A stretch of DNA of 64,000 nt from a virus. The translations under genes and the position numbers were made by a program. This document shows positions 5,463 to 57,944 of the stretch, piece by piece (positions within the stretch are counted from its first letter, which is position 1; each line of letters starts with the position of its first letter). The notes under the pieces were generated by a model. It had not been told where the DNA came from. It searched no databases and saw only the letters and a program-made list of their open reading frames with translations. The stretch is taken from the IMG/VR virus record IMGVR_UViG_3300023175_001370, positions 1-64,000 of that record; one strand, 5' to 3'.

Positions 5463-5801
5463 ATGAGAAAAGATAGCTTTTGGTGGATAGCACCTGAATA
5501 TTTCAGTAGATGGAGATTATTTCCACGTGCTTTTATTACGATGTATATCTATCTACTCTGGAGAGTAGTTGAGTGGTTCATGGCATTGCCTGATCCGTCA
5601 ATGGAACAAGCAGGTCTAGTTTCAGTTATCGTTGGCGCCGGCGCTGCGTGGTTTGGTCTATATGTTAATTCAAGTTCATCTACCTTTGTCGCTGAGGTTG
5701 ATACAAGACAAACAGGATCTATGGGTGGTTCAACTAAAATGACTGCTAAAGAAAAGCGTGACTATAATGAATATAATGATTATGACGGAGATAAGTTTTA
5801 A
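5463..5801 (+). CDS. Small two-helix membrane protein, holin-like
   Basis: A 112-residue protein with two hydrophobic helices, at about residues 20-40 (ITMYIYLLWRVVEWFMAL) and 50-68 (GLVSVIVGAGAAWFGLYV), and a polar Lys/Glu/Asp/Asn-rich C-terminal tail. The start at 5463 is preferred over an upstream in-frame codon because it follows the ribosome-binding site AAGAGGTG and gives a protein beginning MRKDSFWW. Two helices, small size and late expression fit a holin or a holin-like membrane protein. No lysin gene is adjacent, so this is only likely. It overlaps the next gene by one base (TAATG). Confidence 0.5.
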   Translation: MRKDSFWWIAPEYFSRWRLFPRAFITMYIYLLWRVVEWFMALPDPSMEQAGLVSVIVGAGAAWFGLYVNSSSSTFVAEVDTRQTGSMGGSTKMTAKEKRDYNEYNDYDGDKF

Positions 5802-6256
5802 TGAAGTCTTTTAAGCATCACATACGTCTTGGTTTAGACGAAGAACTTGATAAGCATGATATATCAGGCATACTAACAGTTTTAACAAAGTCTGTACCTA
5901 ATATGTTTGAAGCTAAAGAAGAAGGCTCGGCTGTTCACTATCACACTGAGGGCGATACACATATGTATGACTTTAAGATAAGCCGTTCATTAACAGAAGC
6001 GGAAACTGAAGTAATATTAAAACTTATTGAAGAATGGACAGATAAAGATTTTGTCTTAGAAATAACAACAACAGAAGATTATTTTCTACCAGAAACAGAA
6101 TATGAAATGGATATAACTGCTATTAAACACAATCGTTGGGTAGATACTAAAGTACAAGAGGGTTGGAGATACGGTTTAGAATTTAGCGAAGAACACAAGA
6201 CTGATCCTAGAATGAGACCGTACCACGAACTAACAGAAAAGTTAAAGAATATGTAG
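5801..6256 (+). CDS. RyR-domain protein
   Basis: A 151-residue protein with two parts. Residues 1-100 are an acidic, unrecognised domain. Residues about 103-150 match the RyR repeat family (named from ryanodine receptors): a W-x-D-x-K-VQEGWRYG core, then EEHKTDPRMRPYHEL, which is the order of conserved positions in that family. RyR domains also occur in bacterial and phage proteins, where their role is largely unknown; ligand or nucleotide binding has been proposed. It is coupled to the holin-like gene by a TAATG junction. Confidence 0.6.
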   Translation: MKSFKHHIRLGLDEELDKHDISGILTVLTKSVPNMFEAKEEGSAVHYHTEGDTHMYDFKISRSLTEAETEVILKLIEEWTDKDFVLEITTTEDYFLPETEYEMDITAIKHNRWVDTKVQEGWRYGLEFSEEHKTDPRMRPYHELTEKLKNM

Positions 6257-6263: not shown

Positions 6264-6292
6264 TTGACACTCATGTAATAATAATGTATTAT
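6264..6292 (+). promoter_or_regulatory. Sigma70-like promoter for the Fe-S gene set
   Basis: TTGACA at 6264-6269, a 17-nt spacer, and TATTAT at 6287-6292. It lies just downstream of the RyR gene and 26 nt ahead of the HscB-like ATG at 6318. Confidence 0.7.
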
Positions 6293-6317: not shown

Positions 6318-6857
6318 ATGTCTGGTACAAAGAAAAGTTACAATCTCAATGAAAAGAATTATTTTAAATTCTTTGGGATACAACAAAAACAAAATATTAG
6401 TGTGCGTAGCCTAACAGCACATTATAAGAAGATCCTTACCATTCTTAAGAATGAAGAGGATAGCTTTTCCAATAGAGAAAAAATTGATTTTGCTACACGT
6501 TCATTTGAAACATTGGCGGATCCGATTTCCCGTGCAAGATATTTAATTGAACTAAACGGCTACGAAAGCGATGTTAGAGATAGTGCCGAACCAAGTGATT
6601 TTGTTTTTGTAAATCAACTTAATCATCAATACGAAACCGCTAATACAGTTGAAGAGATTGAAGAGTTTATACTAGAACTTAAAAGTCAAACTACATTTAT
6701 CAAAGAACAGATAGAAGAAAGTATTGACATCTACGAAAACTACAAAATTGCTGCAGGTCTTTTAAACAGGTTTTATGAAATATCAAATATTCATAACAGG
6801 TCTAAACAAAAGAAAACAGAAATAGAAGCAGGAATTAAGTATGTTGTATTTGACTGA
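6318..6857 (+). CDS. HscB-like Fe-S co-chaperone without an HPD motif
   Basis: A 179-residue protein with the layout of HscB, the J-domain co-chaperone that delivers IscU to HscA. The N-terminal YFKFFGI corresponds to the YFTLFGL-type start of HscB. The middle has the DFATRSFETLADPISRARYLIELNGYE segment typical of the family. The C-terminal part is the helical client-binding domain. The loop that should carry the invariant His-Pro-Asp of J-domains reads KNEED (about residues 44-48), so Hsp70 ATPase stimulation is probably lost. Two A-type carrier genes follow directly, the first overlapping by 17 nt, which supports a role in Fe-S cluster handling. It could be a scaffold-binding variant or a decoy. 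Confidence 0.65.
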   Translation: MSGTKKSYNLNEKNYFKFFGIQQKQNISVRSLTAHYKKILTILKNEEDSFSNREKIDFATRSFETLADPISRARYLIELNGYESDVRDSAEPSDFVFVNQLNHQYETANTVEEIEEFILELKSQTTFIKEQIEESIDIYENYKIAAGLLNRFYEISNIHNRSKQKKTEIEAGIKYVVFD

Positions 6858-7164
6858 GACAGCGGAAAAACGAATTAAAAAATGGACAGAAAACGAAAGT
6901 GATAAGATTGTAAGAATATCAATAAAAACAGCCGGATGTACAGGTCTTATGTACGAAGTTGTACTAGATAATTCTTACAACATACTTGAAGATCATGTTA
7001 TAAATTATAATGGTATTAGCATTCTAGTAGAAAATAAATACTTGAATGCAATAAACGGTGCCACCCTTGATTATGTCACCGAGGGGTTAAATTCTCATTT
7101 TGAGTTAATAGATAATCCAAATGAAAAAGCAAGATGTGGGTGTGGGGAGAGTTTTACGATATGA
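6841..7164 (+). CDS. A-type Fe-S carrier (IscA/HesB-like), copy 1
   Basis: A 107-residue member of the IscA/SufA/ErpA/HesB family. The three cluster-ligand cysteines are present: one in TAGCTG near residue 35 and two in the C-terminal CGCGESF motif. A-type carriers accept Fe-S clusters from scaffolds and pass them to apo-enzymes. The gene overlaps the HscB-like gene upstream and shares an ATGA junction with a second A-type carrier downstream. A single copy of this family is known from other marine phages; the tandem arrangement with an HscB-like gene is less usual. Confidence 0.85.
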   Translation: MLYLTETAEKRIKKWTENESDKIVRISIKTAGCTGLMYEVVLDNSYNILEDHVINYNGISILVENKYLNAINGATLDYVTEGLNSHFELIDNPNEKARCGCGESFTI

Positions 7165-7484
7165 TATTTACGGAAGCGGCCGCGGCAAGAGCAAAAGAGA
7201 TAATCGAAGAACAGGGTGAACAATCGTCAACTGCGTTACGAGTATATGTAGAAGGCGGAGGGTGTCATGGATTTAGCTATGGATTTACATTTGCTAATGA
7301 TATAGAAGATGATGACACCGTAATAGAAACAGATGATGTTAAGTTGGTAATTGACAGTGCTAGTATTATGTATCTAAGTGATGCTAAGATAGACTTTATA
7401 ACAAGTATGCATGGCGACAGATTTACAATAGATAACCCAAATGCTACTACAACGTGTGGGTGTGGGTCCAGCTTTTCTATATAA
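7161..7484 (+). CDS. A-type Fe-S carrier (IscA/HesB-like), copy 2
   Basis: A 107-residue A-type carrier with GGGCHGFSYG holding the first ligand cysteine and a C-terminal CGCGSSFSI. The start at 7161 (MIFTEAAAARAKEII) overlaps the previous stop as ATGA; a longer in-frame start at 7134 would lie inside the preceding gene. The two carriers differ clearly in sequence, so they may serve different clients, as IscA and ErpA do in bacteria. A late-promoter motif follows immediately. Confidence 0.85.
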   Translation: MIFTEAAAARAKEIIEEQGEQSSTALRVYVEGGGCHGFSYGFTFANDIEDDDTVIETDDVKLVIDSASIMYLSDAKIDFITSMHGDRFTIDNPNATTTCGCGSSFSI

Positions 7485-7496: not shown

Positions 7497-7532
7497 ATAC
7501 AATAATTTATTATAGTATGTTTGGAGATAGAT

Positions 7533-7991
7533 ATGATATTTTTACGTTGGTGGCTTTTCTTTTGCCTAACAATCCTAGCAACAACTGTTTGCTACTACTT
7601 TGGGTTCTTTAATGAACTACTAGACAAAGACGCAACACGACTTTCATTCGTAATTATCGCAGTCTATTTTTTAGCATCAACATATGTAGGAAAACTAACA
7701 TATGACCAACGTAGAGGAAAAGATTATTCAACAGGTATGAATGTATCTTGGTTCATAAGTGAATCTCTACTTACATTAGGTATGATAGGCACAGTTGCTG
7801 GTTTCATTATCATGTTGGGTGACAGTTTTGGATCAATAGATACAGCCAATCCAGAGACTCTAAAAGAAGCACTAAGTTCAATGGCTCTCGGTATGAGTAC
7901 AGCATTATATACAACATTAGTCGGTCTAGTCCTTAGTCAGGCTCTAAAGATACAATTAGTAAATCTTGAGTCTGGAGAGGATGATGGCTAA
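7533..7991 (+). CDS. MotA/TolQ/ExbB-family proton-channel-like protein
   Basis: A 152-residue membrane protein. Hydrophobic segments lie at about residues 5-27, 37-55, 73-95 and 118-142. The third and fourth carry LLTLGMIGTVAGFI and ALGMSTALYTTLVGLVL, the signature of the MotA/TolQ/ExbB channel fold, where these helices line a proton path. It is shorter than bacterial ExbB (about 240) because the long cytoplasmic parts are missing. GGAG 6 nt ahead favours the ATG at 7533. The next gene, an ExbD-like protein, overlaps the end, as expected for a 5:2-type stator pair. The role in a phage is unknown. Confidence 0.7.
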   Translation: MIFLRWWLFFCLTILATTVCYYFGFFNELLDKDATRLSFVIIAVYFLASTYVGKLTYDQRRGKDYSTGMNVSWFISESLLTLGMIGTVAGFIIMLGDSFGSIDTANPETLKEALSSMALGMSTALYTTLVGLVLSQALKIQLVNLESGEDDG

Positions 7992-8646
7992 TAAAAATAA
8001 ACAAAGATTTAAAAGTACTACTGGTCTGAATGACCTGTTATTCAACTTATTAGTAGGATTTGTATTTTTGTTTATTGTAGCATTTTTATTAATCAATCCC
8101 CCTACTAAAAAAGAAGATGCACCAAAGAAAGCAGAATATTTAATCATTATTGAATGGGACACAGTATCAAATGATGATGTTGATTTATGGGTGCAAGACC
8201 CAGGAAATGTAACTGTTTCATTTACACGAAAAGAAGGCGGTCTACTTAACCTAGAAAAAGATGATTTGGGTGTTAGTAATGACCAGTGGATTACACCACA
8301 AGGCGAGCGTGTAACTATTCCAATCAACCGTGAAGTTGTAACAATGCGTGGCATTAAACCAGGCAGATACAAGATCGCGGCTCATATATATTCTTACAGA
8401 TATCCTAAAAGAAGAGAGGGTGGCAAAATGGTTGACATAGAAGATAACCGAGAAATTGTTGCTACACTTATAAAAATAAATCCATATGGAGAAAAGTATC
8501 GTGTATCTAAAAAGTATAAACAGCGTGGACAAGTTATAACTCTCTTTAATTTTGAGTTAGACGAAGACGGTAATATCACAGCAGTTGATGATAGAAAACA
8601 CAACTTTGTTATGCGTGTTGGCAGTAACTCACCCGGAGGAATATAA
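7984..8646 (+). CDS. ExbD/TolR-like partner with C-terminal beta domain
   Basis: A 220-residue protein with one transmembrane helix at about residues 17-37. Asp17 is at the N-terminal end of the helix, the place of the proton-carrying acid in ExbD, TolR and MotB. The rest is a beta-rich domain with DVDLWVQDP and PGRYKIAAHIYSYRYP, resembling DUF2135/YfaP-like modules. The in-frame ATG at 7981 is equally possible; 7984 has better spacing from GGAG. It overlaps the ExbB-like gene by 8 nt and is followed by a third membrane protein, forming a three-gene cassette behind one late-type promoter motif. Confidence 0.55.
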   Translation: MANKNKQRFKSTTGLNDLLFNLLVGFVFLFIVAFLLINPPTKKEDAPKKAEYLIIIEWDTVSNDDVDLWVQDPGNVTVSFTRKEGGLLNLEKDDLGVSNDQWITPQGERVTIPINREVVTMRGIKPGRYKIAAHIYSYRYPKRREGGKMVDIEDNREIVATLIKINPYGEKYRVSKKYKQRGQVITLFNFELDEDGNITAVDDRKHNFVMRVGSNSPGGI

Positions 8647-8648
8647 AA

Positions 8649-9338
8649 ATGAATCTTTACAACTTTGACTTACTGCCTATTCTGATAGCACTGATCGTAG
8701 TTTCTACAGTTGTGTTATGGATTGCTATTAGAAACTATAAAAATTTTGTATTAATGTTCTTTCTTATACCGTTAACACTTTATAGTGGTTGGACAATCTA
8801 TATAACAGTAGATAGATTATTGGGTTATCCAACAATTGATATATTTGAGAAAGACACAATGTACATTTCACATTTTGAAAATCCAGATATATCAGAATGG
8901 ATTTATGTTTGGGTGATAAAACCAGGTGAAGCCAAACCTAAAGCTATTATGATACCAAATACAGAAAATAATCAAGAACAATTAAGTGAGGCAGAACAGA
9001 AGAGTTCTAACGGTGTTCAAGTATATATGGAAATTGATCCTGACGGAAATGGACAAACATCAGGTGGTGAAATCAATACATATGATTTTCAACAGAATTG
9101 GGGAGCCGCTGAAAAAGAAAAGCAAAGACAGAGTGATCAAAATGAAACACGCATACTTCCAGGACCAGCATCAAACAGTATAACACCGCCTAGTACTGGA
9201 AATAGACCTCAATTAAATTCAGACGAAGTTAATAATCAGCAGATTTGGAGAGACGAAGAATCTACTGAATACGAAGCAATACCAAACCCATATGATTTTG
9301 ATTGGGCAGACGAAGACGCAGACAGTTTTTTACCATAA
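8649..9338 (+). CDS. Two-helix membrane protein of the ExbB/ExbD-like cassette
   Basis: A 229-residue protein with two transmembrane helices at about residues 8-28 and 33-52, then a soluble Gln/Glu/Asn-rich domain of about 170 residues. The first part of that domain contains SEWIYVWVIKPGE. The end is acidic and proline-containing (NPYDFDWADEDADSF), probably disordered. It starts 2 nt after the ExbD-like stop, so the three genes are probably made together. I do not recognise the family. Confidence 0.6.
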   Translation: MNLYNFDLLPILIALIVVSTVVLWIAIRNYKNFVLMFFLIPLTLYSGWTIYITVDRLLGYPTIDIFEKDTMYISHFENPDISEWIYVWVIKPGEAKPKAIMIPNTENNQEQLSEAEQKSSNGVQVYMEIDPDGNGQTSGGEINTYDFQQNWGAAEKEKQRQSDQNETRILPGPASNSITPPSTGNRPQLNSDEVNNQQIWRDEESTEYEAIPNPYDFDWADEDADSFLP

Positions 9339-10056: not shown

Positions 10057-10131
10057 TCCGGCGTAGCTCAGTGGTAGAGCAGTTGACTGTTAATCAATTG
10101 GTCGTAGGTTCGACCCCTACCGCCGGAGCCA
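10057..10131 (+). tRNA. tRNA-Asn (GTT)
   Basis: Cloverleaf with acceptor TCCGGCG/CGCCGGA, anticodon GTT, T-arm GGTTCGACCCC, discriminator G and encoded CCA. Confidence 0.95.
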
Positions 10132-10135
10132 TTTT

Positions 10136-10211
10136 GCAGGTGTAGCTCAGTTGGTAGAGCATCGGTCTCCAAAACCGAGGGTCCTGGGTTCAAGTCCTAG
10201 CGCCTGTGCCA
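10136..10211 (+). tRNA. tRNA-Trp (CCA)
   Basis: Acceptor GCAGGTG/CGCCTGT, five-base-pair anticodon stem TCGGT/ACCGA enclosing CTCCAAA (anticodon CCA), discriminator G and encoded CCA end. Confidence 0.93.
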
Positions 10212-10215
10212 ATTA

Positions 10216-10305
10216 GGAGAGGTGGCAGAGCGGTTGAATGCACTGGTCTTGAAAACCAGCGTGGGTGAAAGCCCACCGAGGGTTCGAATCCCTCTCTCTC
10301 CGCCA
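10216..10305 (+). tRNA. tRNA-Ser (TGA)
   Basis: Class II tRNA of about 90 nt with a long variable arm (GTGGGTGAAAGCCCAC). Anticodon TGA in the loop between CTGGT and ACCAG; encoded CCA. Confidence 0.93.
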
Positions 10306-10307
10306 TG

Positions 10308-10316
10308 CATAAATAA
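10308..10316 (+). promoter_or_regulatory. Late-promoter-like motif CATAAATAA
   Basis: Motif variant in the gap between tRNA-Ser and tRNA-Thr. It could allow late transcription of the second half of the tRNA cluster. Confidence 0.35.
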
Positions 10317-10336
10317 AAGTGTAAGTTAATTAGCTT

Positions 10337-10412
10337 GCCCCTATAGCTCAGTTGGTAGAGCAACTGATTTGTAATCAGTAGGTCCGCGGTTCGAGTCCGT
10401 GTGGGGGCACCA
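10337..10412 (+). tRNA. tRNA-Thr (TGT)
   Basis: Acceptor GCCCCTA/TGGGGGC with G-T pairs, anticodon stem ACTGA/TCAGT around TTTGTAA (anticodon TGT), encoded CCA. Confidence 0.93.
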
Positions 10413-10428
10413 TAAAAATAAATTGAAT

Positions 10429-10869
10429 ATGTATATAGAGAAATTAAATTTTATTCCAAAAGTCCCAAATAATTTATTACTAACTATTGAAGAGGCAATG
10501 GATAACGAAAACACATATCAAGGTTCTGCGCCAAAAAATATTTATGGTTCTTTTATATGTAACGAAAGTCTATACGATTGGATACAACAATACTTTAATT
10601 ATGAAGTTATTGTGAGATACCAAATTATAGGACAGGACTTGCCTCTACACAGGGATCATGGTATCATTGGAACAAAGGCAAATTATTTAATAACATCTGG
10701 CGGAGAAAATGTTATAACCCAATGGTGGGACGACGAACATAATCCTAGTAAAATGTTATATGAAGAAAAGTGCGATATTAATACATGGTATAATTTAAAT
10801 ATTGAGGAACCACATACTGTTCTAAATGTAAAAGAAACACGATACAGTATAACTGTAAGAAAAAAATAA
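10429..10869 (+). CDS. 2OG-Fe(II) oxygenase-like protein
   Basis: A 146-residue protein with the iron-binding triad pattern of 2-oxoglutarate-dependent oxygenases. LPLHRDHG gives His74 and Asp76, and EPHTVLN gives His129, followed by Arg138 in TRYSITV as the likely 2-oxoglutarate contact. It most resembles aspartyl/prolyl hydroxylase-like phage proteins. The ATG at 10429 is chosen because the longer frame would begin inside tRNA-Thr. It is embedded between tRNA genes. A tRNA or protein substrate cannot be chosen from the sequence. Confidence 0.6.
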   Translation: MYIEKLNFIPKVPNNLLLTIEEAMDNENTYQGSAPKNIYGSFICNESLYDWIQQYFNYEVIVRYQIIGQDLPLHRDHGIIGTKANYLITSGGENVITQWWDDEHNPSKMLYEEKCDINTWYNLNIEEPHTVLNVKETRYSITVRKK

Positions 10870-10870
10870 T

Positions 10871-10955
10871 GCGGATATGGTGAAATTGGTAGACACGCTA
10901 GATTTAGGTTCTAGTGCCGCAAGGCGTGGGGGTTCAAGTCCCTCTATCCGCACCA
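10871..10955 (+). tRNA. tRNA-Leu (TAG)
   Basis: Class II tRNA of 85 nt, acceptor GCGGATA/TATCCGC, anticodon TAG between CTAGA and TCTAG, long variable arm, encoded CCA. It begins one base after the oxygenase stop codon. Confidence 0.93.
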
Positions 10956-10972
10956 ATACAAAGGTAAGCATT

Positions 10973-11065
10973 ATGACTGGTGAAGAAATACTTTTGTGGA
11001 CTACTTTAGGATTTGTAGTCATTATGCTAATATTAATTTTTGTTCTAGTTTTCTGGAACTTATAA
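10973..11065 (+). CDS. Tiny single-helix membrane protein between tRNAs
   Basis: 30 residues: MTGEEILLW, then a continuous hydrophobic helix rich in Leu, Ile, Val and Phe, ending FWNL. AAGGT lies 9 nt upstream. The stop codon abuts the first base of tRNA-Pro, so gene and tRNA are probably on one transcript. Possible roles are an inhibitor or holin-like peptide, but nothing in the sequence decides. Confidence 0.5.
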   Translation: MTGEEILLWTTLGFVVIMLILIFVLVFWNL

Positions 11066-11142
11066 CTCGGTATAGCGCAGTCTGGTAGCGCACTTGTTTT
11101 GGGTACAAGGGGTCGTTGGTTCGAATCCAGCTACCGAGACCA
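11066..11142 (+). tRNA. tRNA-Pro (TGG)
   Basis: Acceptor CTCGGTA/TACCGAG, anticodon stem CTTGT/ACAAG around TTTGGGT (anticodon TGG), encoded CCA. Confidence 0.93.
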
Positions 11143-11144
11143 TA

Positions 11145-11153
11145 TATAAATAT
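11145..11153 (+). promoter_or_regulatory. Late-promoter-like motif TATAAATAT
   Basis: Close match to the T4 late consensus, 8 nt before tRNA-Gly. It could drive tRNA-Gly and the sulfotransferase-like gene late in infection. Confidence 0.4.
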
Positions 11154-11161
11154 AGATATGA

Positions 11162-11236
11162 GCGGGCGTAGCTCAGGGGTAGAGCGTTACCTTGCCAAGG
11201 TAAATGTCGTGAGTTCGAATCTCATCGCCCGCTCCA
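11162..11236 (+). tRNA. tRNA-Gly (GCC)
   Basis: Acceptor GCGGGCG/CGCCCGC, anticodon GCC between TTACC and GGTAA, discriminator T, encoded CCA. Confidence 0.94.
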
Positions 11237-32733: not shown

Positions 32734-32803
32734 AAAGAACGAAAAGTATCTGCGTGGTATTCACACAGAAGAACAATACGAAAAACTAAGGAAACATTTA
32801 TGA
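32717..32803 (+). CDS. Possible micro-gene bridging queE and metK
   Basis: 28 residues (MPGELKKNEKYLRGIHTEEQ...LRKHL). It overlaps the end of queE in another frame, and its TGA overlaps the metK ATG as ATGA, the coupling used across this genome. It fills an otherwise empty 66-nt gap. Composition looks coding, but the length gives little statistical support. Confidence 0.3.
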   Translation: MPGELKKNEKYLRGIHTEEQYEKLRKHL

Positions 32804-33879
32804 ACAACTATATTTTTACGAGCGAAAGTGTTAGCGATGGACACCCAGATAAGGTTGCAGACCAAATCTCTGATGCCCTAGTTGATGCTGGGTTGAAGAA
32901 TGGTGACGAAACTACACGTGTCGCTATCGAAACACTTGTAACTACCAATCATATAACATTGGCGGGCGAAGTAAAAAACTTTAACGTATCTAAGGAAGAA
33001 GTTGAAGAAATCGTGCGCAACAAAGTTCGTGAGATTGGTTATGAACAAGATGGATTTCATTGGGAAAATCTAAAGATTTACAATGAAGTTCACGCACAAA
33101 GTGCTGATATCGCACTAGGCACAGACGATTTTGGTGCTGGAGATCAGGGTATTATGTTTGGATACGCATGTAACGACAATGACGCATATATGCCAGCACC
33201 AATCTATTACGCACATAATATCTTACACAAACTAAAAACAATGCGTGGTGATGTTCTAGGACCTGATGCTAAGTCACAGGTTAGTGTTGAATATGAAGGT
33301 GGTCAAGTAAAACGTATTGACCAAGTAGTTGTATCAACACAACACACCGAAGGAAATATGAGTCAAGCACAGGCTCTATCACGTGAAGCCGCACGTGATG
33401 TCTTAGGAGATTTAATTGATGATGAAACTATATGGCATCTTAACCCTACTGGTAACTTTGTTATTGGTGGGCCCGATGGAGACGCTGGTGTCACCGGAAG
33501 GAAAATTATCGTTGATACTTATGGTGGCTATGCTCCCCATGGTGGTGGGGCTTTTTCTGGAAAAGACCCCACCAAAGTCGATAGATCAGCAGCGTACATG
33601 GCACGATGGTTAGCAAAGAATGTAGTAGCAGATGATATGGCAGATTGGTGCCAGATTCAGTTATCATATGCTATTGGTGTTAAAGAGCCGACATCAATCT
33701 ATGTAGATAGTAATGGACACAATCGTTCAATTCAAAAGTTTATTGAGAATAATATTGACTTGACACCATTGGGTATTATCCGTCGCTTTGATATGTATAA
33801 CTTCCATGAATATAGTAAGAACTGTGTTTATGGTCATTTTGGTAACAAGGATGTTCCTTGGGAAGGGATTGGTTGGTAA
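32800..33879 (+). CDS. metK: S-adenosylmethionine synthetase
   Basis: A 359-residue MetK, slightly shorter than E. coli MetK (384). SESVSDGHPDKVADQISDA is the N-terminal ATP-binding segment. GAGDQGIMFGYA is the conserved methionine loop. NPTGNFVIGGPDGDAGVTGRKIIVDTYGG and HGGGAFSGKDPTKVDRSAAY hold the phosphate-binding loops. It makes SAM from methionine and ATP. Phages rarely carry metK; here the many radical-SAM enzymes and methyltransferases provide an evident demand. AAGGAAA lies ahead of the ATG. Confidence 0.94.
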   Translation: MNNYIFTSESVSDGHPDKVADQISDALVDAGLKNGDETTRVAIETLVTTNHITLAGEVKNFNVSKEEVEEIVRNKVREIGYEQDGFHWENLKIYNEVHAQSADIALGTDDFGAGDQGIMFGYACNDNDAYMPAPIYYAHNILHKLKTMRGDVLGPDAKSQVSVEYEGGQVKRIDQVVVSTQHTEGNMSQAQALSREAARDVLGDLIDDETIWHLNPTGNFVIGGPDGDAGVTGRKIIVDTYGGYAPHGGGAFSGKDPTKVDRSAAYMARWLAKNVVADDMADWCQIQLSYAIGVKEPTSIYVDSNGHNRSIQKFIENNIDLTPLGIIRRFDMYNFHEYSKNCVYGHFGNKDVPWEGIGW

Positions 33880-38631: not shown

Positions 38632-39666
38632 ATGCTAAAGAGTTTCTTTTGGACACCCAAGTATGTCCTATACGCTTGGCTAATGTTAGCTTGGCTACTT
38701 TTTATAGGTTGGTATAATGTTCAAATACTAGTTTATTATAACGCATGGAACCGTGAGTTCTATGATGCTATTCAAACTCTACAAGAAGAAAGATTTTGGG
38801 ATCTATTTTGGGGATTCAATATTGCACGTTTATGGGATTTTATAACATTCGGTATGGATGAAAAAACAACAGTACCTAGTTTCTTAGAAATATTAATTAT
38901 ATATGTACCAATGGCAACATATGCTACTTGGCAAACACAGCGTTATACATTTGCTTGGCGTGAAGCTAATACACACTACTATTTGGAACGTTGGGAGAAA
39001 TCAACAGCGAAGATTGAAGGTGGTTCACAGCGTATTCAAGAAGACTTAATGATTTTCGGTAAGACACTACAATCATTATTTACGGGTTTTGTAAACAAGA
39101 TATTCATTCTTGCTGCGTTTATTCCAGTACTATGGCAATTGAGTGAAGGTCTACCTATCTGGAACGGACAGATTATTCCAGGTTTTCTAGTATGGGCAGC
39201 ACTAACATTAAGTATCGGTGGCACTCTGCTATCATTCTTACTAGGTATTAAACTACCAGGCCTGGAATACAAAAACCAAGTTGTAGAAGCGAAGTTTCGT
39301 AAGAAACTAGTACACAGTGAAGATGATTTTAAAGAGCGCATGACCGAAGACTTGTTCCCAATGTTTGCATCAGTTAAGCGTAACTACTATCGTCTGTTCA
39401 ACTACTATATGGGCTTTGGTGTATGGCAAACAGGCTTCTCACTGATTGCTGGTAACGTTGCTATTATTGTTCTAGCACCAAGTTACTTTGCTCAGTTAAT
39501 TACGTTTGGTGTTCTTATTCAGGTGCTTAACGCATTCGGTAGAGTTGAGGGTGCGCTGACATACTTCATTGATAGATGGACAACAATTGTTGACTTCCAA
39601 TCAGTTATTAAACGTCTGCGTGAATTCAATAAAGTATTAGACGAAGCAGAAGCACAAGAAGCATAA
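38632..39666 (+). CDS. SbmA/BacA-family peptide transporter
   Basis: A 344-residue polytopic membrane protein matching SbmA/BacA along most of its length: NAWNREFYDAIQTL, RYTFAWREANTHYYLERWEKSTAKIEGGSQRIQEDLM, GIKLPGLEYKNQVVEAKFRKKLVHSEDD and GRVEGALTYFIDRWTTIVDFQSVIKRLREF. The E. coli protein has 406 residues, with an extra N-terminal helix pair absent here. SbmA/BacA uses the proton gradient to import peptides such as microcins and proline-rich antimicrobials. GCGGAGG precedes the ATG. The phage role is unknown. Confidence 0.9.
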   Translation: MLKSFFWTPKYVLYAWLMLAWLLFIGWYNVQILVYYNAWNREFYDAIQTLQEERFWDLFWGFNIARLWDFITFGMDEKTTVPSFLEILIIYVPMATYATWQTQRYTFAWREANTHYYLERWEKSTAKIEGGSQRIQEDLMIFGKTLQSLFTGFVNKIFILAAFIPVLWQLSEGLPIWNGQIIPGFLVWAALTLSIGGTLLSFLLGIKLPGLEYKNQVVEAKFRKKLVHSEDDFKERMTEDLFPMFASVKRNYYRLFNYYMGFGVWQTGFSLIAGNVAIIVLAPSYFAQLITFGVLIQVLNAFGRVEGALTYFIDRWTTIVDFQSVIKRLREFNKVLDEAEAQEA

Positions 39667-46798: not shown

Positions 46799-47676
46799 AC
46801 ACTTCTGAAGAAATGTATTTAGACTTACTTCACACAGTGATGGAAAAAGGCGAAGAACGTGACAAGGAGCGAACTGGCGTAGGCACAAAATCTATTTTTA
46901 TGTCAATGCTAAACTTTGATTTTAAAGATGGATTCCCACTTTTAACTACAAAGAAAGTCCCATTCAAATCTGTACTAAGTGAACTGCTTTGGTTCATTGA
47001 AGGATCCACAGATGAACGCAGATTAGCAGAAATACATTATGGTACAACATCTGGTAACATAATGGACAAAAAAACTATCTGGACAGCCAATGCTGATAAT
47101 CAAGGTAAAGAATTAGGTTACATCAATACAGCATTAACAAAGCATCTAGGACCTGTGTACGGAAAGCAATGGAGACGCTGGGAGAAGCCAGAGGGCGGGC
47201 ATATAGATCAACTAGCTAACTTGATTGAGAATATAAAAACCAATCCACAATCACGTAGACATATTCTTTCTGCTTGGAATGTAGCAGATATCGACAAGAT
47301 GGCATTACCACCATGTCACACATTCTCACAATTTTATGTTAATAATAATGGAGAACTAAGCTGCAATCTGTATCAACGTAGTGCTGATTTATTCTTGGGC
47401 GTGCCGTTCAACATTGCGTCATACTCACTATTAACACATATGATTGCACAAGTATGTGAACTTAAAGTGGGAGAGTTTTTTCACACTATCGGTGATGCTC
47501 ACATTTATATGAACCATATAGATGCGGTTAAGGAGCAATTAGAAAGAGAACCAAATGATTATCCAAATTTGGTAATCAATCCAGATATTAAATCAATTGA
47601 CGATTTCAAAATGAATGATTTTGAAATTAAAGACTATAACAGTCATGGGACTATCAAAGCGGATATGGCAGTATGA
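46795..47676 (+). CDS. thyA: Thymidylate synthase
   Basis: A 293-residue ThyA. RTGVGTKSIFMSMLNFDFKDGFPLLTTKKV is the N-terminal phosphate loop, LPPCHTFSQFYV holds the nucleophile Cys, and VPFNIASYSLLTHM has the Asn that selects dUMP; dCMP hydroxymethylases carry Asp here. GDAHIYMNHI completes the site. The Asn argues for dTMP production rather than hydroxymethyl-dCMP. It follows folA with an ATGA overlap. Confidence 0.95.
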   Translation: MNTSEEMYLDLLHTVMEKGEERDKERTGVGTKSIFMSMLNFDFKDGFPLLTTKKVPFKSVLSELLWFIEGSTDERRLAEIHYGTTSGNIMDKKTIWTANADNQGKELGYINTALTKHLGPVYGKQWRRWEKPEGGHIDQLANLIENIKTNPQSRRHILSAWNVADIDKMALPPCHTFSQFYVNNNGELSCNLYQRSADLFLGVPFNIASYSLLTHMIAQVCELKVGEFFHTIGDAHIYMNHIDAVKEQLEREPNDYPNLVINPDIKSIDDFKMNDFEIKDYNSHGTIKADMAV

Positions 47677-48302
47677 GTTTTGACTTCTTAACATTAACAG
47701 CATATGGTGATCAAATAGAATTAAAGCCAACTATAGATGGAAAGAAGTTTGTTCGCTGGTCAGAAGACAACTTCAAGTATGTTAGATATAATCCAAGACA
47801 CGATGTTAATCGTTGGGGGTTAAGTATAACTAGTTTAGATGGTGGGCTTAGTGGTGTACCAGATTTAGATAGCCTACATCAATATAATATAGAAAACAAT
47901 ACTAGTCATGCTGAAACAGACTTTGATGTAGTCACACCAGTTTACGAACAATATAAAGAACTTCAACAAATTATTGAACCATGGAAAAATTACATGTTTC
48001 GTTCACATGTAATCAGATTAGGCCCGGGAGGTTTTTTCCCACCACACCGTGACACATATCATTATGATATCAATACTTTTAGATTAATTGTTCCATTACA
48101 CAATTGTAACCCACCAAATGTTTTCTTCAACTTAGAAGAAAACGCAATGCATTGGGAACAGGGACGTATGTACTTTCTTAATACAACTAAAGTACATACC
48201 CTTTTTAATGCTAGTTTTGATAATAGTTACTGGATTGTTTTTAACATAAAATGTAATAAAGATTCGGTAAACGCTGTTTTGAGAAACTTAAAACAAAATT
48301 AG
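47673..48302 (+). CDS. Aspartyl/asparaginyl hydroxylase-like 2OG oxygenase
   Basis: A 209-residue protein with FPPHRDT (His125, Asp127), RLIVPLHNC and TTKVHTLFN (His175), the HxD...H pattern of Fe(II)/2-oxoglutarate oxygenases of the aspartyl hydroxylase-like type. ATGA overlap with thyA upstream. The end meets the first gene of the minus-strand radical-SAM operon tail to tail with 4 nt overlap. Substrate unknown; it may act in the same modification system. Confidence 0.7.
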   Translation: MSFDFLTLTAYGDQIELKPTIDGKKFVRWSEDNFKYVRYNPRHDVNRWGLSITSLDGGLSGVPDLDSLHQYNIENNTSHAETDFDVVTPVYEQYKELQQIIEPWKNYMFRSHVIRLGPGGFFPPHRDTYHYDINTFRLIVPLHNCNPPNVFFNLEENAMHWEQGRMYFLNTTKVHTLFNASFDNSYWIVFNIKCNKDSVNAVLRNLKQN

Positions 48303-49411
48303 ACTTTTCTCTTTGGTATTTTACTATCGGCTGAACTTACACAACTTTTGCTAATACAAGGCATCGGTTTATCAAATAGTTTAAATCCACTCTCAATATA
48401 TCCTAATGGTTGATCTGCACAACTATATGAACGTTTGATGGATCCGTCAGGTTCACGTATAATAATTCCTTGATATCCACTGTTACAACTCCATCCTTCA
48501 AAATTATTAAAGTTAAAAGCATTGAAACGTTCTGCTTGGTCCATATACCACTTCTTACCTTTTGAATCAGTGAACTCTACCTGCATATGCCATGGAACGC
48601 TTTTATCATTTTCACCAATAGCGTACTGTGGCATTTCAAATGTAGGCTTCGGTCTACCCTCCCATTTTCTTTTTACTTCAGTATAAGCCATTTGAGGCAT
48701 ACCATTCCACAAACGCTTCATTTGTTCTTCTGTATATCCTTCAACAACTTTTGACGCTGTTGGGTCACTTTGGGGTTTGAGGGTAACGTTGATTCCTTGC
48801 TCGTGGAAGAAAAGAGCATTTTCCCAATCTTTTTCAAACCACTCGGGAACCATGACCATGTTGATTGTAATCTGTACATCGTGTTCCTGACACAGGATTA
48901 ATTTGTCTGCAAATTCCTGCATCTTCTCCTTCGTGTCTAAATGCTCTGTATGTAAACTTGCTGTAATACTTGCTCTATGAAAAGGTTTCGCTCTTTCCAC
49001 ATAATCCTCAAACCACTTAAGTGGGCGAGAACAATTACTAGTCATATGTATACTAGTATAGTTAGTATTAGGAACATCATCAGCCAAATGGCCCAGTATG
49101 TCCAAGTATCCAGGGTGGAAGGTAGGCTCGCCCCCACTAAGACTAAAGTGAAAACTATTAAATCCATTATCACGTGCTTGCCTCTTTATTTCATCTACTG
49201 TTGCTAGACACAACTCTGTTGGTCTGTGATCTTTTCTGTCACTTCTGGCATAGGGCCAGCAATAACTACATCTATAGTTACAGAAGCGTCCAAGTAACCA
49301 TGACACTGTAAATAAGTCACGGTAAAGTAATGTACGCTGTCCTACTTGTACTAAATCATCAAAAGGTATTTTAGTAAAGTCATACTCACTCCATTTTAAG
49401 TCTTCACTCAT
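48299..49411 (-). CDS. Radical SAM protein, group C
   Basis: A 370-residue radical-SAM protein with FCNYRCSYC (Cys44, 48, 51) and LSGGEPTFHPG. Its C-terminal half contains NSGYQGIIIREPDGSIKRSYSC and PMPCISKSCVSS, a possible SPASM-like auxiliary region. The start at 49411 gives an ATGA overlap with the PP-loop gene upstream. It is the last of nine closely linked minus-strand genes. Product unknown; close in type to peptide- or small-molecule-modifying enzymes. Confidence 0.85.
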   Translation of the reverse strand: MSEDLKWSEYDFTKIPFDDLVQVGQRTLLYRDLFTVSWLLGRFCNYRCSYCWPYARSDRKDHRPTELCLATVDEIKRQARDNGFNSFHFSLSGGEPTFHPGYLDILGHLADDVPNTNYTSIHMTSNCSRPLKWFEDYVERAKPFHRASITASLHTEHLDTKEKMQEFADKLILCQEHDVQITINMVMVPEWFEKDWENALFFHEQGINVTLKPQSDPTASKVVEGYTEEQMKRLWNGMPQMAYTEVKRKWEGRPKPTFEMPQYAIGENDKSVPWHMQVEFTDSKGKKWYMDQAERFNAFNFNNFEGWSCNSGYQGIIIREPDGSIKRSYSCADQPLGYIESGFKLFDKPMPCISKSCVSSADSKIPKRKV

Positions 49412-50034
49412 AGTCGTCCAAATCCCCATTGTCTTTCTTCACACCACCAACAATAACCACACTGTTCTACTGTAGGATCAATGTCTGGTAGATGTTTCAT
49501 CGTGTCATCCATCCATTCACAACTACTAGTTAACTCAAACAAATCTAATAAGTTATGTTTTCTATATAAATTAGCAATACCACGTTTATCTATATTAGCA
49601 AATGGTAATCTAACTTTACCATCAAACAGAATTTCAGGGCGATTACCGTCTGGTGTTCTATCATCTACTGGACCATCTTTACTAATGAAACTCTCAACGA
49701 CATCTGCCGGCGGATTAGCTGTAGCACCATTATAAAAACAACTTATAGTATTACTATCTAATAATGAACTAAGATCCTCGTTCAAGTTTTCTAATGTCTG
49801 ATGTGGTATATGTCTTAATCTATGGTCATAGTTTGTAAATCCAGTAGCATTGCTACAGTACTCTATGATAGAAGGAGTTCTTTTTGCATTACGTTCAAAT
49901 TTATCTGCTGCTGCTACTGTACATATGTACATTTTATTTTTATGTACAGACATCAGTAAGTACAATAGAAGTGCGCTATCTGCACCTCCACTGACTGATA
50001 CTCCTATAGGTTCATTCGGTGTTTCTATAATCAT
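49408..50034 (-). CDS. PP-loop ATPase, QueC/ExsB-like (copy 1)
   Basis: A 208-residue adenine-nucleotide alpha-hydrolase with the PP-loop VSGGADSALLL (about residues 14-24). At the C-terminus QCGYCWWCEERQWGFG gives a Cys-x2-Cys-x2-Cys set like the zinc motif of QueC, with another Cys at SSCEW. QueC turns 7-carboxy-7-deazaguanine into preQ0 by ATP-driven amide/nitrile formation. As queE and dpdA are present, this or the second copy could supply that step, or it may adenylate another substrate. ATGA overlaps on both sides. Confidence 0.7.
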   Translation of the reverse strand: MIIETPNEPIGVSVSGGADSALLLYLLMSVHKNKMYICTVAAADKFERNAKRTPSIIEYCSNATGFTNYDHRLRHIPHQTLENLNEDLSSLLDSNTISCFYNGATANPPADVVESFISKDGPVDDRTPDGNRPEILFDGKVRLPFANIDKRGIANLYRKHNLLDLFELTSSCEWMDDTMKHLPDIDPTVEQCGYCWWCEERQWGFGRL

Positions 50035-50984
50035 AATTCTTCTTTTATAAATGTATCACGCTTCATTTGCTTACATACTTGCATACAGCGAGGAACAGGA
50101 TTATCCCCATCCCAACTATCAATAATGCCCTTCCACACTTTACTGTTTATGGCATCTTCAATACTTGCGTTTTCTAAATTTATCGTATTTTTATAATCGT
50201 TTTCTTCTAGTAGTGTTTCAAATTCATCTTTGTGAATACCTGTTACATTATATTCCATCATTTTACTATTTAAATGACAACAAGGTATTACGTTACCAGT
50301 ATGATTAATAAAGATACGCTTTTGATTTCCATATTTACAACTCACATATGGTATCTCTACTGCGTTATCTATGTCTTCAGTCTTTGCCGCTTTCACACCT
50401 TTAGTGTCTTTACGATGACTAATAATAGTTTTAAAATTTTTAAACCCTTCGTCAGATGCTTTTTGTTTTGCTTCTTCCATCTGATGTTCGTTATGTTCAA
50501 AAACAATGAACTGCCAATTACTTCGACCACCTGCTGCGTTAAATGCTTTATAGTTTTGTTCTACTTTTTTAAAGCTACTGCCTTCTCTATAAACTTCACT
50601 TAGTTCATCACTTCCATCGATTCCCCAGGTAACTGCGTGGCTCTCTGGTAGTAGTCCTGCTAAGTCTGTCCACCATTGTGGGTGACGCAAACTGCCATTA
50701 GTAGCAATGTTAATATGCGCACCCCAATCAGCAAAGTGTCTTATGATATCAAAGAATTGTGGGTGCGATGTGGGTTCGTCTACACTGCCACAAAAATTTA
50801 TAATCTTAATACTTGGAAACATATCTTTTTGAAATCGTTCACGTATTGTATCAATTGTAATATATTCTTTGTTTAATATTTTATCAGCATGTTTAGATAT
50901 AACTCTAAAACATCCTTTACATTGGATGTTACAAAAACTTGTTAGTTCTATATCTAACCATTCTATTGTTTTCATATCCCACAT
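50031..50984 (-). CDS. Radical SAM protein with SPASM-like tail, group B
   Basis: A 317-residue radical-SAM enzyme. FCNIQCKGC (Cys18, 22, 25) lies near the N-terminus, then NFCGSVDEPTSHP in place of the usual GGEP. IPCCHLNSKMM and RCMQVCKQM form a C-terminal auxiliary Cys region. VFEHNEHQMEEAK is shared with the protein at 61003 (VFDHNEHEVEAAK), marking a subfamily. The partial gene at 63453 looks like a third member. Confidence 0.82.
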   Translation of the reverse strand: MWDMKTIEWLDIELTSFCNIQCKGCFRVISKHADKILNKEYITIDTIRERFQKDMFPSIKIINFCGSVDEPTSHPQFFDIIRHFADWGAHINIATNGSLRHPQWWTDLAGLLPESHAVTWGIDGSDELSEVYREGSSFKKVEQNYKAFNAAGGRSNWQFIVFEHNEHQMEEAKQKASDEGFKNFKTIISHRKDTKGVKAAKTEDIDNAVEIPYVSCKYGNQKRIFINHTGNVIPCCHLNSKMMEYNVTGIHKDEFETLLEENDYKNTINLENASIEDAINSKVWKGIIDSWDGDNPVPRCMQVCKQMKRDTFIKEEL

Positions 50985-50996
50985 TATGTATTCTCT

Positions 50997-51626
50997 TTAT
51001 ATTACATATGTTTTTATAGATTTACTATGAGAAACTATATTTCTAAAAACAGTACCATCATCATTTAGTACAGTATTCCACGTATGTTCTTTATTAGGAA
51101 AACCTATACCCAATTGATAGTGTGGTTTTGAAAAAAATTCAATATCTGTTTCGCCTGTAACTTCTGTTACTAATTCAGCAATATCTTTTGAATCAAAACA
51201 TTGATTGTATCCGGTACGGTATCCTAAAGCATTCGCTGCAAATGCTACAGCGCCACTGCTAATTCCCATAGCAGTTCTGGCATTTAATAACCATGGATCA
51301 AAAAATCCTTGAGTGTTTTTCCAATCTCCAATGCCTTCTTTTTTAAGTTCAAACCAAGTAAACACCACAGGTGCATCAACTTGTGCGTTTCTACCTACAG
51401 TTTGTTGATTATCTGGATCTTCTGCCAATTCATAAAATTTACGATTTAAATCTCTATCGGTTGATACTACTAATCTGTAAAATTCATCATTAGATTTAGT
51501 AGGCATGTTTGTTGCTATATCAATTAGCGCATGTACATGTTCTTCTGGAACCGATTGTGTATGATCCCAGTTACGTTGGCAATGTTCAGCGTTTTTGCTT
51601 GCTTCAATTAATTCATTTACATTCAT
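50997..51626 (-). CDS. Nitroreductase-family FMN protein
   Basis: A 209-residue protein with the fold pattern of nitroreductases: N-terminal RNWDHTQSVPEEHVHALIDIATNMPTKSN with the FMN phosphate-type Ser/Lys, a middle with VFTWFELKKEG, ARTAMGISSGAVAFAANALGYRTGYNQCF for the second FMN region, and HYQLGIGFPN at the C-terminal part. It may supply a redox step or reduce a nitro or enone group in the pathway. It sits between two radical-SAM genes with ATGA overlap upstream. Confidence 0.8.
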   Translation of the reverse strand: MNVNELIEASKNAEHCQRNWDHTQSVPEEHVHALIDIATNMPTKSNDEFYRLVVSTDRDLNRKFYELAEDPDNQQTVGRNAQVDAPVVFTWFELKKEGIGDWKNTQGFFDPWLLNARTAMGISSGAVAFAANALGYRTGYNQCFDSKDIAELVTEVTGETDIEFFSKPHYQLGIGFPNKEHTWNTVLNDDGTVFRNIVSHSKSIKTYVI

Positions 51627-52837
51627 TTTGTGTTCTCAAATATACTCATGTCTTCAATGTGTTGAGGTAAAATACTCATTAGTTCATCACGTTCAATACT
51701 CTTAGGTGTACACATACCGCATCCACAATGCTTTCCAGGACCTAGAGGGCATGTTATAATAGGCATTGTTTTATTTTCTATATTAGTACGGAACTCTTCT
51801 ATAATCTTATCGCATTCTGAAATAGATCCAATTGGACCACGTGTACCATCAAAACGTGCTTGACAAGTTTGGTGATGCCAGATAGTATCTGTTTGTTGTT
51901 CAATATGTAAAAAGAACCAGTTGACACTACATTGCCAGTTTCGAAACTTAGCAAACTCTAAAAATGTGCTTTTACTCCAGCAACCATCTGTACCGCAAGT
52001 TTCCATTGTGCGACTACCACAACACGGTCTACCCAACTGTCTAGCAAATTTCTTTTCTTCTGTTTTTTCGACTTGTACAGCACCAGCTTCGTGTCCTACT
52101 TCTGCTTCTGCTTCTTCCGTAGTTTTATCTTTATTAAGTGCTGCATTTTTATCTGCCCAATAATCTTTCATCCACTGTAATTGTTCTTCAGTATATTTAT
52201 GGGCATAACTATTTTTACTATCTTCGTGTTCACCAATCATACGCGGAACGTAACCGATACCATCACGTTCGAAACGCATACATAATTCTTTACATTCATC
52301 CCAATATTCAGCATGGAACATAACATTAATTTTGATTGGGAATCCTTTTTCAGTTAGATAGTAAATGTTATTAACAACTTGTTTTTTTAAACTTGAATGT
52401 GCTTCCGCATGGTAACTGATAGTCATAAAGCCATAGTTTTCGCAAACACTGTCTGCCATCTTTTTACCGAAAGCACCGTTACTAGTAATAGTCAAGTTTA
52501 GTCTATAATCATCTTTATAATTTTCACGCCATGTTTGCTGTAGCCATTCGCCAAACTCTAAAAAGTTTGGATTGTTTGTAGGTTCACCACCAGTAAAATT
52601 GATGTTTATACCTTTATTTTTTTTATAAGGCATCATTAAATTTGCGTAATCAAAAATAAATCTGCCAGTCTTTTTTAAAGTTTCTAAATTAGCATGTGGT
52701 GAAAAGTTATCGTGTCTATGTGGTGGACAATATGTACAGTCATAGTTACAACGTCTACCCACATCCCACGTTACAGTAAGATTGTCACCATCCAGCAAAT
52801 TGATTGCTGTAAAATCAGTGTATTCTAAATCTTTCAT
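51623..52837 (-). CDS. Radical SAM protein with Cys-rich C-terminus, group C
   Basis: A 404-residue protein with RRCNYDCTYC (Cys30, 34, 37) and INFTGGEPTNNP. The C-terminal third has CCGSRTMETCGTDGC, WQCSVNW, CQARFDG and PLGPGKHCGCGMC, about ten cysteines and enough for one or two extra Fe-S clusters. Between the two parts (about residues 235-270) lies a Glu/Lys/Ala-rich charged insertion. It is linked by ATGA overlaps to the nitroreductase and to the next radical-SAM gene. Confidence 0.85.
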   Translation of the reverse strand: MKDLEYTDFTAINLLDGDNLTVTWDVGRRCNYDCTYCPPHRHDNFSPHANLETLKKTGRFIFDYANLMMPYKKNKGININFTGGEPTNNPNFLEFGEWLQQTWRENYKDDYRLNLTITSNGAFGKKMADSVCENYGFMTISYHAEAHSSLKKQVVNNIYYLTEKGFPIKINVMFHAEYWDECKELCMRFERDGIGYVPRMIGEHEDSKNSYAHKYTEEQLQWMKDYWADKNAALNKDKTTEEAEAEVGHEAGAVQVEKTEEKKFARQLGRPCCGSRTMETCGTDGCWSKSTFLEFAKFRNWQCSVNWFFLHIEQQTDTIWHHQTCQARFDGTRGPIGSISECDKIIEEFRTNIENKTMPIITCPLGPGKHCGCGMCTPKSIERDELMSILPQHIEDMSIFENTK

Positions 52838-54285
52838 TTTATTGGAGTCTCCAAAAATTCTATTATGTCCGGATGAATGTAATCATTATAACATTGATTT
52901 CTACTCATGTCAAACACTTTTATTTCTTTTAGCATATTCAATCTATGTTGTTCTGTTATTTCTAAATCTAAGTTTGCTTCTAAGAAAGAAATACCACTTG
53001 TCATATTAGTATGATAATAATCATTATTATGACTATAATTTTCTTTGATATTTTTAAATTTTTCTATCAAGTCTAACTTTATATGTTTAGGTAAAAACTT
53101 AACATTTATGTATTTTTCTTCGGGCCAAAGCAAGTCTAAAAAGAATACAGCAAATTCATTTGATTTTCTACCATACTCTTTATGTAAACTATAATGAAAC
53201 TCTACTAAATCCTCTAAGTAATGTGCATTTAGCACACTAAGAACGACATTGAAACTAAAGTTTTTTATGAATCCATATGGTGTTCTTTTATAATTAATAT
53301 CTTTGACAGATTCTAAAATATTTCTTAAACTCTTTTCTAATACTGAAAATTTCATAGGGTATCTTATATATTCATAATTTTTCCCATATCCATCGATACT
53401 ACAATTTAATACAAGACCGTCAAACTTTTTTAACTTTTCTATATTTTCATTTGAAAACTTAGTAGCATTAGTATGGAACTCTAACATAATATTTTTTGAG
53501 GCTCCAGTTTCAATAGCCGTATCTAAAAACTGTATAAAAGGTTTACTCATAAGAGTTTCACCACCAGTTGCTTTTATATGTTTTAAATTATGTATATTGT
53601 CTAATATATTTTCCCACTGTTTTCCGTCTTTCCAGTTGTATACTTGGTATTCGCCACCTATGTATAATTCTTGATCCGTTCTCTTTTGTTCTTCTAACGA
53701 TAATTCAGTAAGAGAATTTTCTTTTATGATAGTATCTCTGCGTTTCTGCCAATCAAATCCTTGAATACCACTTGTGTCCACATTGTTATCGGCAAAATAT
53801 TGATAGTCTAATCTAAGTTTATTACTTAAACCTGGTTGACACATACGACATCTCAAATTACAGTTTTCACCAAACGCAAAATCAATAGAACTTAATTTTG
53901 GATTTTCTATAAGATCATCTAATTCGTCTTCGTCTGTTATTTTTAATAAGCCAGGAGGCATGCTGTCTAATCTATAACTATAAACGTCATCTCCATTTCC
54001 GTTTTCTTCCATCTTCCAACACGTAGCACATGAAGGATGTCTTCTGTTAGTTAACGCATACTCTCTTATTTCATTCATCGTCTTGCCATGAAATATTTCT
54101 TCTGCGGTAATAGTATCAGGATTAGATATCAGTTCTATGTGGTTATTTAACGGATCAGGCATATCAGGACGTATCGAATTACAGCACGGCGCAGCATTCG
54201 TAATGCCATACTTGTAATGCCAAGTCTTTAACGCCAGTAATGAAAATGGAAACCAGCAAAAAGTATTATCTTTAGTTGGTTTCAC
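52834..54285 (-). CDS. Radical SAM protein with N-terminal Cys module (twitch type)
   Basis: A 483-residue group A protein. Order of motifs: Cys10 (FCWFPF), CysCys34-35, CATCW (Cys86, 89), then the radical-SAM site CNLRCRMC (Cys142, 146, 149), ATGGETL, and SIDGYGKNYEYIRYP. The cysteine module N-terminal to the core differs from classic SPASM proteins, where it follows. The YEYIRYP motif recurs in this group and may bind substrate. Overlaps the upstream PP-loop gene by 14 nt. Confidence 0.85.
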   Translation of the reverse strand: MKPTKDNTFCWFPFSLLALKTWHYKYGITNAAPCCNSIRPDMPDPLNNHIELISNPDTITAEEIFHGKTMNEIREYALTNRRHPSCATCWKMEENGNGDDVYSYRLDSMPPGLLKITDEDELDDLIENPKLSSIDFAFGENCNLRCRMCQPGLSNKLRLDYQYFADNNVDTSGIQGFDWQKRRDTIIKENSLTELSLEEQKRTDQELYIGGEYQVYNWKDGKQWENILDNIHNLKHIKATGGETLMSKPFIQFLDTAIETGASKNIMLEFHTNATKFSNENIEKLKKFDGLVLNCSIDGYGKNYEYIRYPMKFSVLEKSLRNILESVKDINYKRTPYGFIKNFSFNVVLSVLNAHYLEDLVEFHYSLHKEYGRKSNEFAVFFLDLLWPEEKYINVKFLPKHIKLDLIEKFKNIKENYSHNNDYYHTNMTSGISFLEANLDLEITEQHRLNMLKEIKVFDMSRNQCYNDYIHPDIIEFLETPIK

Positions 54286-57904: not shown

Positions 57905-57908
57905 GCTT

Positions 57909-57917
57909 ATATTTATC
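57909..57917 (-). promoter_or_regulatory. Late-promoter-like motif GATAAATAT (minus), 4 nt from ATG
   Basis: Minus-strand copy ending 4 nt before the ATG of the nine-gene minus operon. It is one half of a divergent pair in a 40-nt gap. Confidence 0.6.
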
Positions 57918-57940: not shown

Positions 57941-57944
57941 CAGT

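Follow-up and report, generated by a model that had tools for sequence, protein, structure and literature searches.

An HscB homologue lacking the HPD motif shares an operon with two A-type iron-sulphur carrier genes in a T4-like phage

The operon and its surroundings

The DNA analysed here (the window) covers positions 1 to 64,000 of an IMG/VR virus record of 90,395 bp (record G000). The phage encodes a T4-type DNA polymerase (phrog_262) and a baseplate wedge protein (phrog_677), and is classed on its sequence as a T4-like virus of bacteria. At 6318-7484 on the plus strand, three overlapping, intact ORFs form one operon, in which a first-pass annotation had recognised an HscB-like gene and two IscA-type genes behind a sigma70-type promoter of their own; the genes are where it had placed them, and the promoter is confirmed too.

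6264-6292, plus strand: sigma70-type promoter, TTGACA-17-TATTAT, agreeing with 11 of 12 consensus positions, upstream of the operon
6318-6857, plus strand: gene 1, HscB homologue, 179 aa, with HPD and the start of helix III lost (NCBIfam HscB, hhalign, Foldseek/VIA)
6841-7164, plus strand: gene 2, A-type carrier of the IscA lineage, 107 aa, ligands C33/C99/C101 retained (TIGR00049, tree)
7161-7484, plus strand: gene 3, A-type carrier of the ErpA lineage, 107 aa, three ligand Cys retained (NF010147 ErpA)

The promoter scores highest among 22 matches in 4.1 kb. Chance alone would give about 19 weaker ones there, but we take this one to be more than a chance match because the pattern TTGAC(A/T)-N17-TAT(T/C/A)AT is kept 47-55 nt upstream of the start codon in nine of nine phages. 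The ORF of gene 3 opens at 7134, but 7161 is most likely the true start, since the ATGA at this position overlaps the stop of gene 2 and the ErpA-like proteins of loci L060, L237 and L238 start at, or no more than three residues from, the matching Met.

Just 5' of the promoter, and kept in all relatives, is a gene for a RyR-domain protein (5801-6256; PF02026 above cut-off). In every relative, the Fe-S genes are followed by a conserved block (7521-9338 in the window) that encodes a MotA/TolQ/ExbB-like protein (PF01618 above cut-off, weak ZorA similarity) and then two membrane-anchored proteins. Seven tRNA genes (Asn, Trp, Ser, Thr, Leu, Pro and Gly; 10057-11236) surround an ORF at 10399-10869 that has 98.7% identity in L001, compared with 59-81% for its neighbours, and an SbmA/BacA-like inner-membrane peptide transporter (38632-39666; PF05992, 262 bits) has homologues with 70-89% identity in L056, L237 and L238.

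An HscB homologue without HPD

Gene 1 is recognised by two HscB profiles at scores below their curated cut-offs: NF002935 at E=1.6e-10 over residues 12-164 (41.7 bits, cut-off 198) and TIGR00714 at E=1.2e-4 (22.2 bits, cut-off 46.75). Neither Pfam DnaJ nor HSCB_C matches the gene 1 protein, and the Pfam matches obtained for the HscB-like protein (L28e, KIP1 and PUB) were dismissed as sub-cut-off and different between relatives. Profile-profile comparison with hhalign identifies HscB at 99.2% across both domains (residues 13-171 of 179), and the ten best PDB matches (Foldseek) of a structure model with pLDDT 80.4 are all HscB or Jac1, with Z of 10.2-11.6 over 147-162 residues (VIA). Because a second model, made from nine sequences, is less confident (71.2 versus 80.4, with the J-like half at pLDDT 47-61), structural weight is put on the C-terminal bundle and the profile alignment. 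Profiles and models make the homology of gene 1 to HscB firm: ancestry and fold mark it as an HscB, whereas the defining features of the co-chaperone do not.

J-proteins drive Hsp70 through their HPD motif. HPD is found in each of the 74 chromosomal HscBs that we gathered at beta- and gammaproteobacterial IscU loci. The phage set comprises nine HscB-like sequences from IMG/VR, all complete, and none of them has HPD; about eight of the residues following the HPD position are deleted in them as well. A frameshift or sequencing error was rejected as the origin of this loss, since it recurs in nine intact relatives. HPD is invariant in Hsc20 proteins and is part of the Hsp70 contact (PMC9596805). 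The canonical HscA-stimulating function is therefore not expected, and the phage protein, as far as its sequence tells, is not an ordinary co-chaperone; the idea of an ordinary HscB aiding cluster assembly is not supported, on the same count of 0/9 against 74/74.

Binding to IscU can be judged from the hot spots L92, L96 and F153 by which E. coli HscB holds its partner (PMC3040723). Position 92 is Phe or Tyr in the phage proteins, and thus hydrophobic in all; position 96 is Leu in only one of the mafft and hhalign alignments, which disagree here; and position 153 is Glu in all nine copies in both. IscU binding by the HscB-like protein is not assured, given the uniform replacement of F153 by Glu and the alignment dependence of L96, and this Glu would be the main argument against tight binding. 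The basic residues R30, K37 and K38 of helix II are invariant, and an N-terminal MSG-K-Y-L-EKNY, an LADPI-RARY stretch and GLLNRFYEIS are nearly so. Substitution rates (dN 0.036 and dS 0.57 between L055 and L057; dN 0.089 and dS 1.97 between L060 and L063) point firmly to purifying selection on the gene, and it is because dN is far below dS and these stretches are nearly invariant that the protein is taken not to be decaying.

The HscB-like protein gave zero tblastn matches in 50,697 phage records from two annotated phage collections, and a profile scan of genome contigs with its alignment returned no close cellular relative. Among viral records bearing IscU or A-type genes, none exceeds the curated HscB cut-off in a TIGR00714 scan. 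An HscB-like protein was not found in 47 other such records in a search run without an internal positive control; TIGR00714 on nearly the same records matches the five included records of the HscB-bearing lineages and, weakly, one unrelated record and G002 again. On viral contigs with IscU, an HscB profile also matched proteins of 630 aa; these are DnaK, and the matches were discarded as an artefact of an over-long ORF in the training set. Four viral contigs (L177, L189, L193 and L209) have IscU and IscA-type genes together with a full-length DnaK, and these are either phage-borne chaperones or cellular sequence within the virus collection. Record G002 also encodes, adjoining a ClpA-like gene, a J-domain protein of 125 aa whose HPD is intact (L235:1453-1830), in the same phage as an HPD-less HscB, and this could be the J-partner wanting in the HscB-like protein.

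Carriers, linkage and cofactor context

Gene 2 scores 96.1 bits with TIGR00049 (cut-off 58.8) and 47.2 with PF01521 (cut-off 26.3) and falls below the equivalog cut-offs of SufA (82.8, cut-off 136.2) and IscA (77.9, cut-off 150.6). In the tree it groups as the sister of chromosomal IscA (support 99/99), and C33, C99 and C101 are invariant in four phages. Gene 3 exceeds the ErpA equivalog cut-off (NF010147, 147.8 bits against 117), its three ligand Cys are invariant across the aligned relatives, and its closest PDB relative is 2apn, HI1723. The phage carriers group on separate branches. Genes 2 and 3 share 29% identity and belong to well-separated lineages, which rules out that one is a recent tandem copy of the other. 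Genes 2 and 3 are well supported as real A-type iron-sulphur carriers, with cluster binding and transfer predicted. Matches to ErpA in the two annotated phage collections were partial only, many of them in host-like records.

In every phage locus where the HscB-like gene is seen, the very next gene encodes an A-type carrier. The order HscB-like, IscA-like, ErpA-like is found in the window, L001, L055 and L057, whereas L060 to L063 and L239 have a nitroreductase-like gene intervening between IscA-like and ErpA-like. In L237 and L238 the ErpA-like gene is the sole A-type gene and follows the HscB-like gene, and in L236 an unrelated A-type carrier occupies the partner position. That the pairing is retained while the partner is exchanged argues for a functional tie between the HscB-like protein and a carrier. 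The nitroreductase homologue of L060 (L060:10820-11569; PF00881 25.0 bits, above cut-off) has 34% blastp identity to a protein that, in the window phage, is encoded within the radical-SAM cluster (50997-51626, listed below), and is perhaps a reductase for the Fe-S system.

In six relatives (L055:9308-9547, L057:9072-9305, L060:11916-12155, L063:11918-12157, L239:11916-12155 and L238:10843-11124) the gene immediately 3' of the ErpA-like gene encodes an acyl carrier protein (ACP); this is not so in the window, in L001 or in L236. Since the mitochondrial cysteine desulfurase complex includes ACP, the gene could conceivably be linked to cluster assembly. Also encoded 3' of the ErpA-like gene, in two loci (L237:2528-3385 and L238:11306-12145), is a secreted protein of about 280 aa that is porin-like and of low complexity, with no Pfam match above cut-off.

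Radical-SAM enzymes require a [4Fe-4S] cluster and SAM, and genes for both these enzymes and a SAM synthetase are carried by the phage.

32800-33879, plus strand: S-adenosylmethionine synthetase (MetK), 359 aa (PF00438, PF02772 and PF02773, all far over cut-off)
48299-62097, minus strand: radical-SAM cluster, minus-strand members in the window (PF04055 and per-protein Pfam), with more members extending to about 83 kb in the record
50997-51626, minus strand: nitroreductase-like protein in the radical-SAM cluster (PF00881 22.0 bits, just below cut-off)
57657-59219, plus strand: radical-SAM protein within the cluster (PF04055 44.8 bits)
61931-63460, plus strand: radical-SAM/SPASM-like protein (PF13186 SPASM 27.0 bits; weak PF04055)

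A PF04055 scan of the whole 90-kb record counts 15 radical-SAM domains, all between 48 and 83 kb, in line with the earlier estimate of about a dozen proteins; several are of the twitch type (NF033640) and one has a B12-binding domain. Beside the cluster are a PP-loop/QueC-like ATPase (49408-50034) and an aspartyl/asparaginyl hydroxylase-like protein (47673-48302), whose homologues co-travel in L060-L063 and L239. The radical-SAM region of the record further contains a carbamoyltransferase gene (68723-70258 of record G000, L046:4723-6258; PF02543/PF16861) and a cytidylyltransferase-like gene (74987-75631 of the record), suggestive of a pathway for a modified sugar or a small molecule.

Co-occurrence with radical-SAM genes across related phages, on which the first-pass annotation had staked its proposal, was found in all seven scanned HscB-bearing (trio) records of at least 58 kb, and MetK is encoded in 7/7 trio-bearing records tested. 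The relatives have one radical-SAM domain in G002, six in G004, two in G013 and 2, 9 and 18 in G010, G011 and G012, which are the same phage judged by trio identity; G001, a 15-kb fragment, has zero, and all such counts are lower bounds since virus records are fragments. Radical-SAM genes are present in 11 of the 47 other IscU- or A-type-bearing viral records, a set gathered via IscU and ErpA queries and not a random sample, and six radical-SAM domains occur in G003, a relative that lacks the trio. With the trio counted as five lineages, the difference from the comparison records has a Fisher p=0.0017, or p=0.015 against only the 13 records of at least 45 kb, in a comparison that is confounded by record length and, because the trio is confined to one T4-like phage group, by lineage.

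IscU with intact Cys and LPPVK is encoded in six HscB-bearing records (G010-G013, G063 and G064); it was not found in the fragments G000, G001, G002, G004 and G062 or in G061, which has 120 kb, and no hscA was seen in the phage set. The closest cellular relatives of phage IscU are from Methylophilales (84%, tblastn). Phage IscUs form a separate branch in the tree (support 96/90), and IscU was for this reason rejected as a host marker. A sodium:solute symporter gene (L065:1-1425; PF00474) adjoins the phage IscU gene.

Possible roles of the operon and comparison with known systems

What might an HscB homologue without HPD do beside cluster carriers? We consider it an evenly balanced proposition that the operon is a phage-borne [4Fe-4S] supply set for phage radical-SAM enzymes, in which the HscB-derived part is an Hsp70-independent partner of IscU and/or the carriers. 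The phage probably supplies its own enzymes with cofactors, and in a way unlike the bacterial original; the carriers and the cofactor context of this reading are well supported, and the adaptor role of the HscB-like protein is one that we infer. The IscA-like and ErpA-like carriers would accept clusters from the IscU machinery, that of the host here and the phage IscU in several relatives, and would deliver them to the phage radical-SAM enzymes, for which phage MetK would provide SAM. Uncoupled from Hsp70 (HscA), the HscB-like protein would not be a co-chaperone of the usual kind and may instead hold, stabilise or divert IscU-bound clusters to the phage carriers, with diversion as its putative purpose and IscU or the carriers as its likely client. 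HscB without HscA slows cluster transfer from IscU, Isu bound by Hsc20 is protected from LON, and the desulfurase competes with HscB for a single face of IscU (PMC9596805, PMC6506825). A holding role fits because HscB alone slows transfer and Hsc20 shields Isu. A more specific mechanism, that the HPD-less HscB family passes IscU-bound clusters, or IscU, directly to A-type carriers dedicated to radical-SAM enzymes and so bypasses HscA, we put forward only tentatively. The earlier proposal that the phage supplements host cluster assembly is sustained in that the set is real, conserved and co-occurring with radical-SAM genes (7/7) and MetK (7/7), but must be amended for the HscB, which is not an ordinary one (HPD 0/9).

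A competitor, too, would be expected to have lost HPD and kept the remaining fold, and the protein might serve host take-over as a dominant-negative on IscU, on the IscS surface or, via basic helix II, on the J-site of HscA, throttling host delivery and sparing iron and clusters for the phage. The invariant R30, K37 and K38 would suit such a role, as would the slowing of cluster formation and transfer reported for isolated HscB (PMC6506825), yet its constant pairing with cluster carriers suggests supply rather than blockade, and Glu in place of F153 would weaken competition for host IscU; we regard a dominant-negative as improbable, if a serious contender. Both HscB-defining features are altered in every copy (HPD 9/9, F153 to Glu 9/9) and an A-type gene is always near although the partner changes, as might be expected of a neofunctionalised scaffold that contacts neither IscU nor Hsp70 and bridges the A-type carriers, or other operon proteins, to recipient enzymes. 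Against such a scaffold, the full-length HscB architecture and the hydrophobic L92 position are retained and phage IscU is present in several records; we hold this explanation to be unlikely.

A working HscB co-chaperone that speeds cluster transfer with host HscA, as the first-pass annotation had it, could be argued from the homology and fold, the basic helix II and the LPPVK that phage IscU retains as the HscA site, but HPD, a motif invariant in Hsc20 and part of the Hsp70 contact (PMC9596805), is missing from 9/9 phage copies and present in 74/74 chromosomal ones, which makes it very improbable. Least credible is that the genes are chance neighbours of a late operon with no shared role: conserved phage genes unrelated to Fe-S do flank them on both sides, but nine phages share the order, overlaps and promoter, the hscB-like gene is under purifying selection, and the pairing survives partner exchange.

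If the supply reading is true, the virus equips a large radical-SAM arsenal with each of its two cofactors, 4Fe-4S clusters and SAM, and the combination of HscB-like protein, A-type carrier and MetK is a marker for finding such phages. Natural, Hsp70-uncoupled HscBs beside carriers would offer a direct way into the role of HscB in cluster transfer other than recruiting Hsp70. A precedent is Tim16/Pam16, J-like proteins that keep the J fold, have lost HPD and do not stimulate Hsp70 on their own, although they are of another family with another client. Compared with HscB/Hsc20/Jac1, the phage protein has the same two-domain helical architecture and a recognisable signature helix (ETLADPISRARYL versus QTLRHPLMRAEYL), but has lost HPD and about eight of the next residues and has Glu in place of F153.

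The bacterial isc operon (iscU-iscA-hscB-hscA-fdx) likewise combines iscA and hscB, and iscU is present in some of the phages. Unlike it, the phage operon has the order hscB-iscA-erpA, with erpA included, no hscA seen and an HscB without HPD, and its carriers, like phage IscU, are on phage branches of their own; because the order in cellular isc operons at IscU loci is iscU-iscA-hscB, we consider it a separate arrangement. A-type genes have been reported in phages of OM43 (PMC10580990), and Nishimura et al. (2017) described T4-like marine viral genomes with genes for an A-type carrier and/or IscU and up to 12 radical-SAM genes, the 12 being in one 183-kb genome, and proposed cluster supply to viral proteins (PMC5332604); phage cluster supply as a joint explanation was thus already theirs. 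An HscB beside A-type carriers, which the first-pass annotation had thought new, does appear to be so: that paper does not mention one, and a search of part of the phage literature found no report of it or of any phage HscB homologue. The window phage resembles the phages of PMC5332604 in being T4-like and in combining A-type genes, here two, with several Fe-S enzymes of the same genome, here represented by 15 radical-SAM domains. It differs from them, for which no HscB homologue is mentioned, in an operon headed by an HPD-less HscB homologue with one or two carriers, and in a MetK in the record. The combination of A-type carrier or IscU with radical-SAM genes is already known; what is new is the HscB family without HPD.
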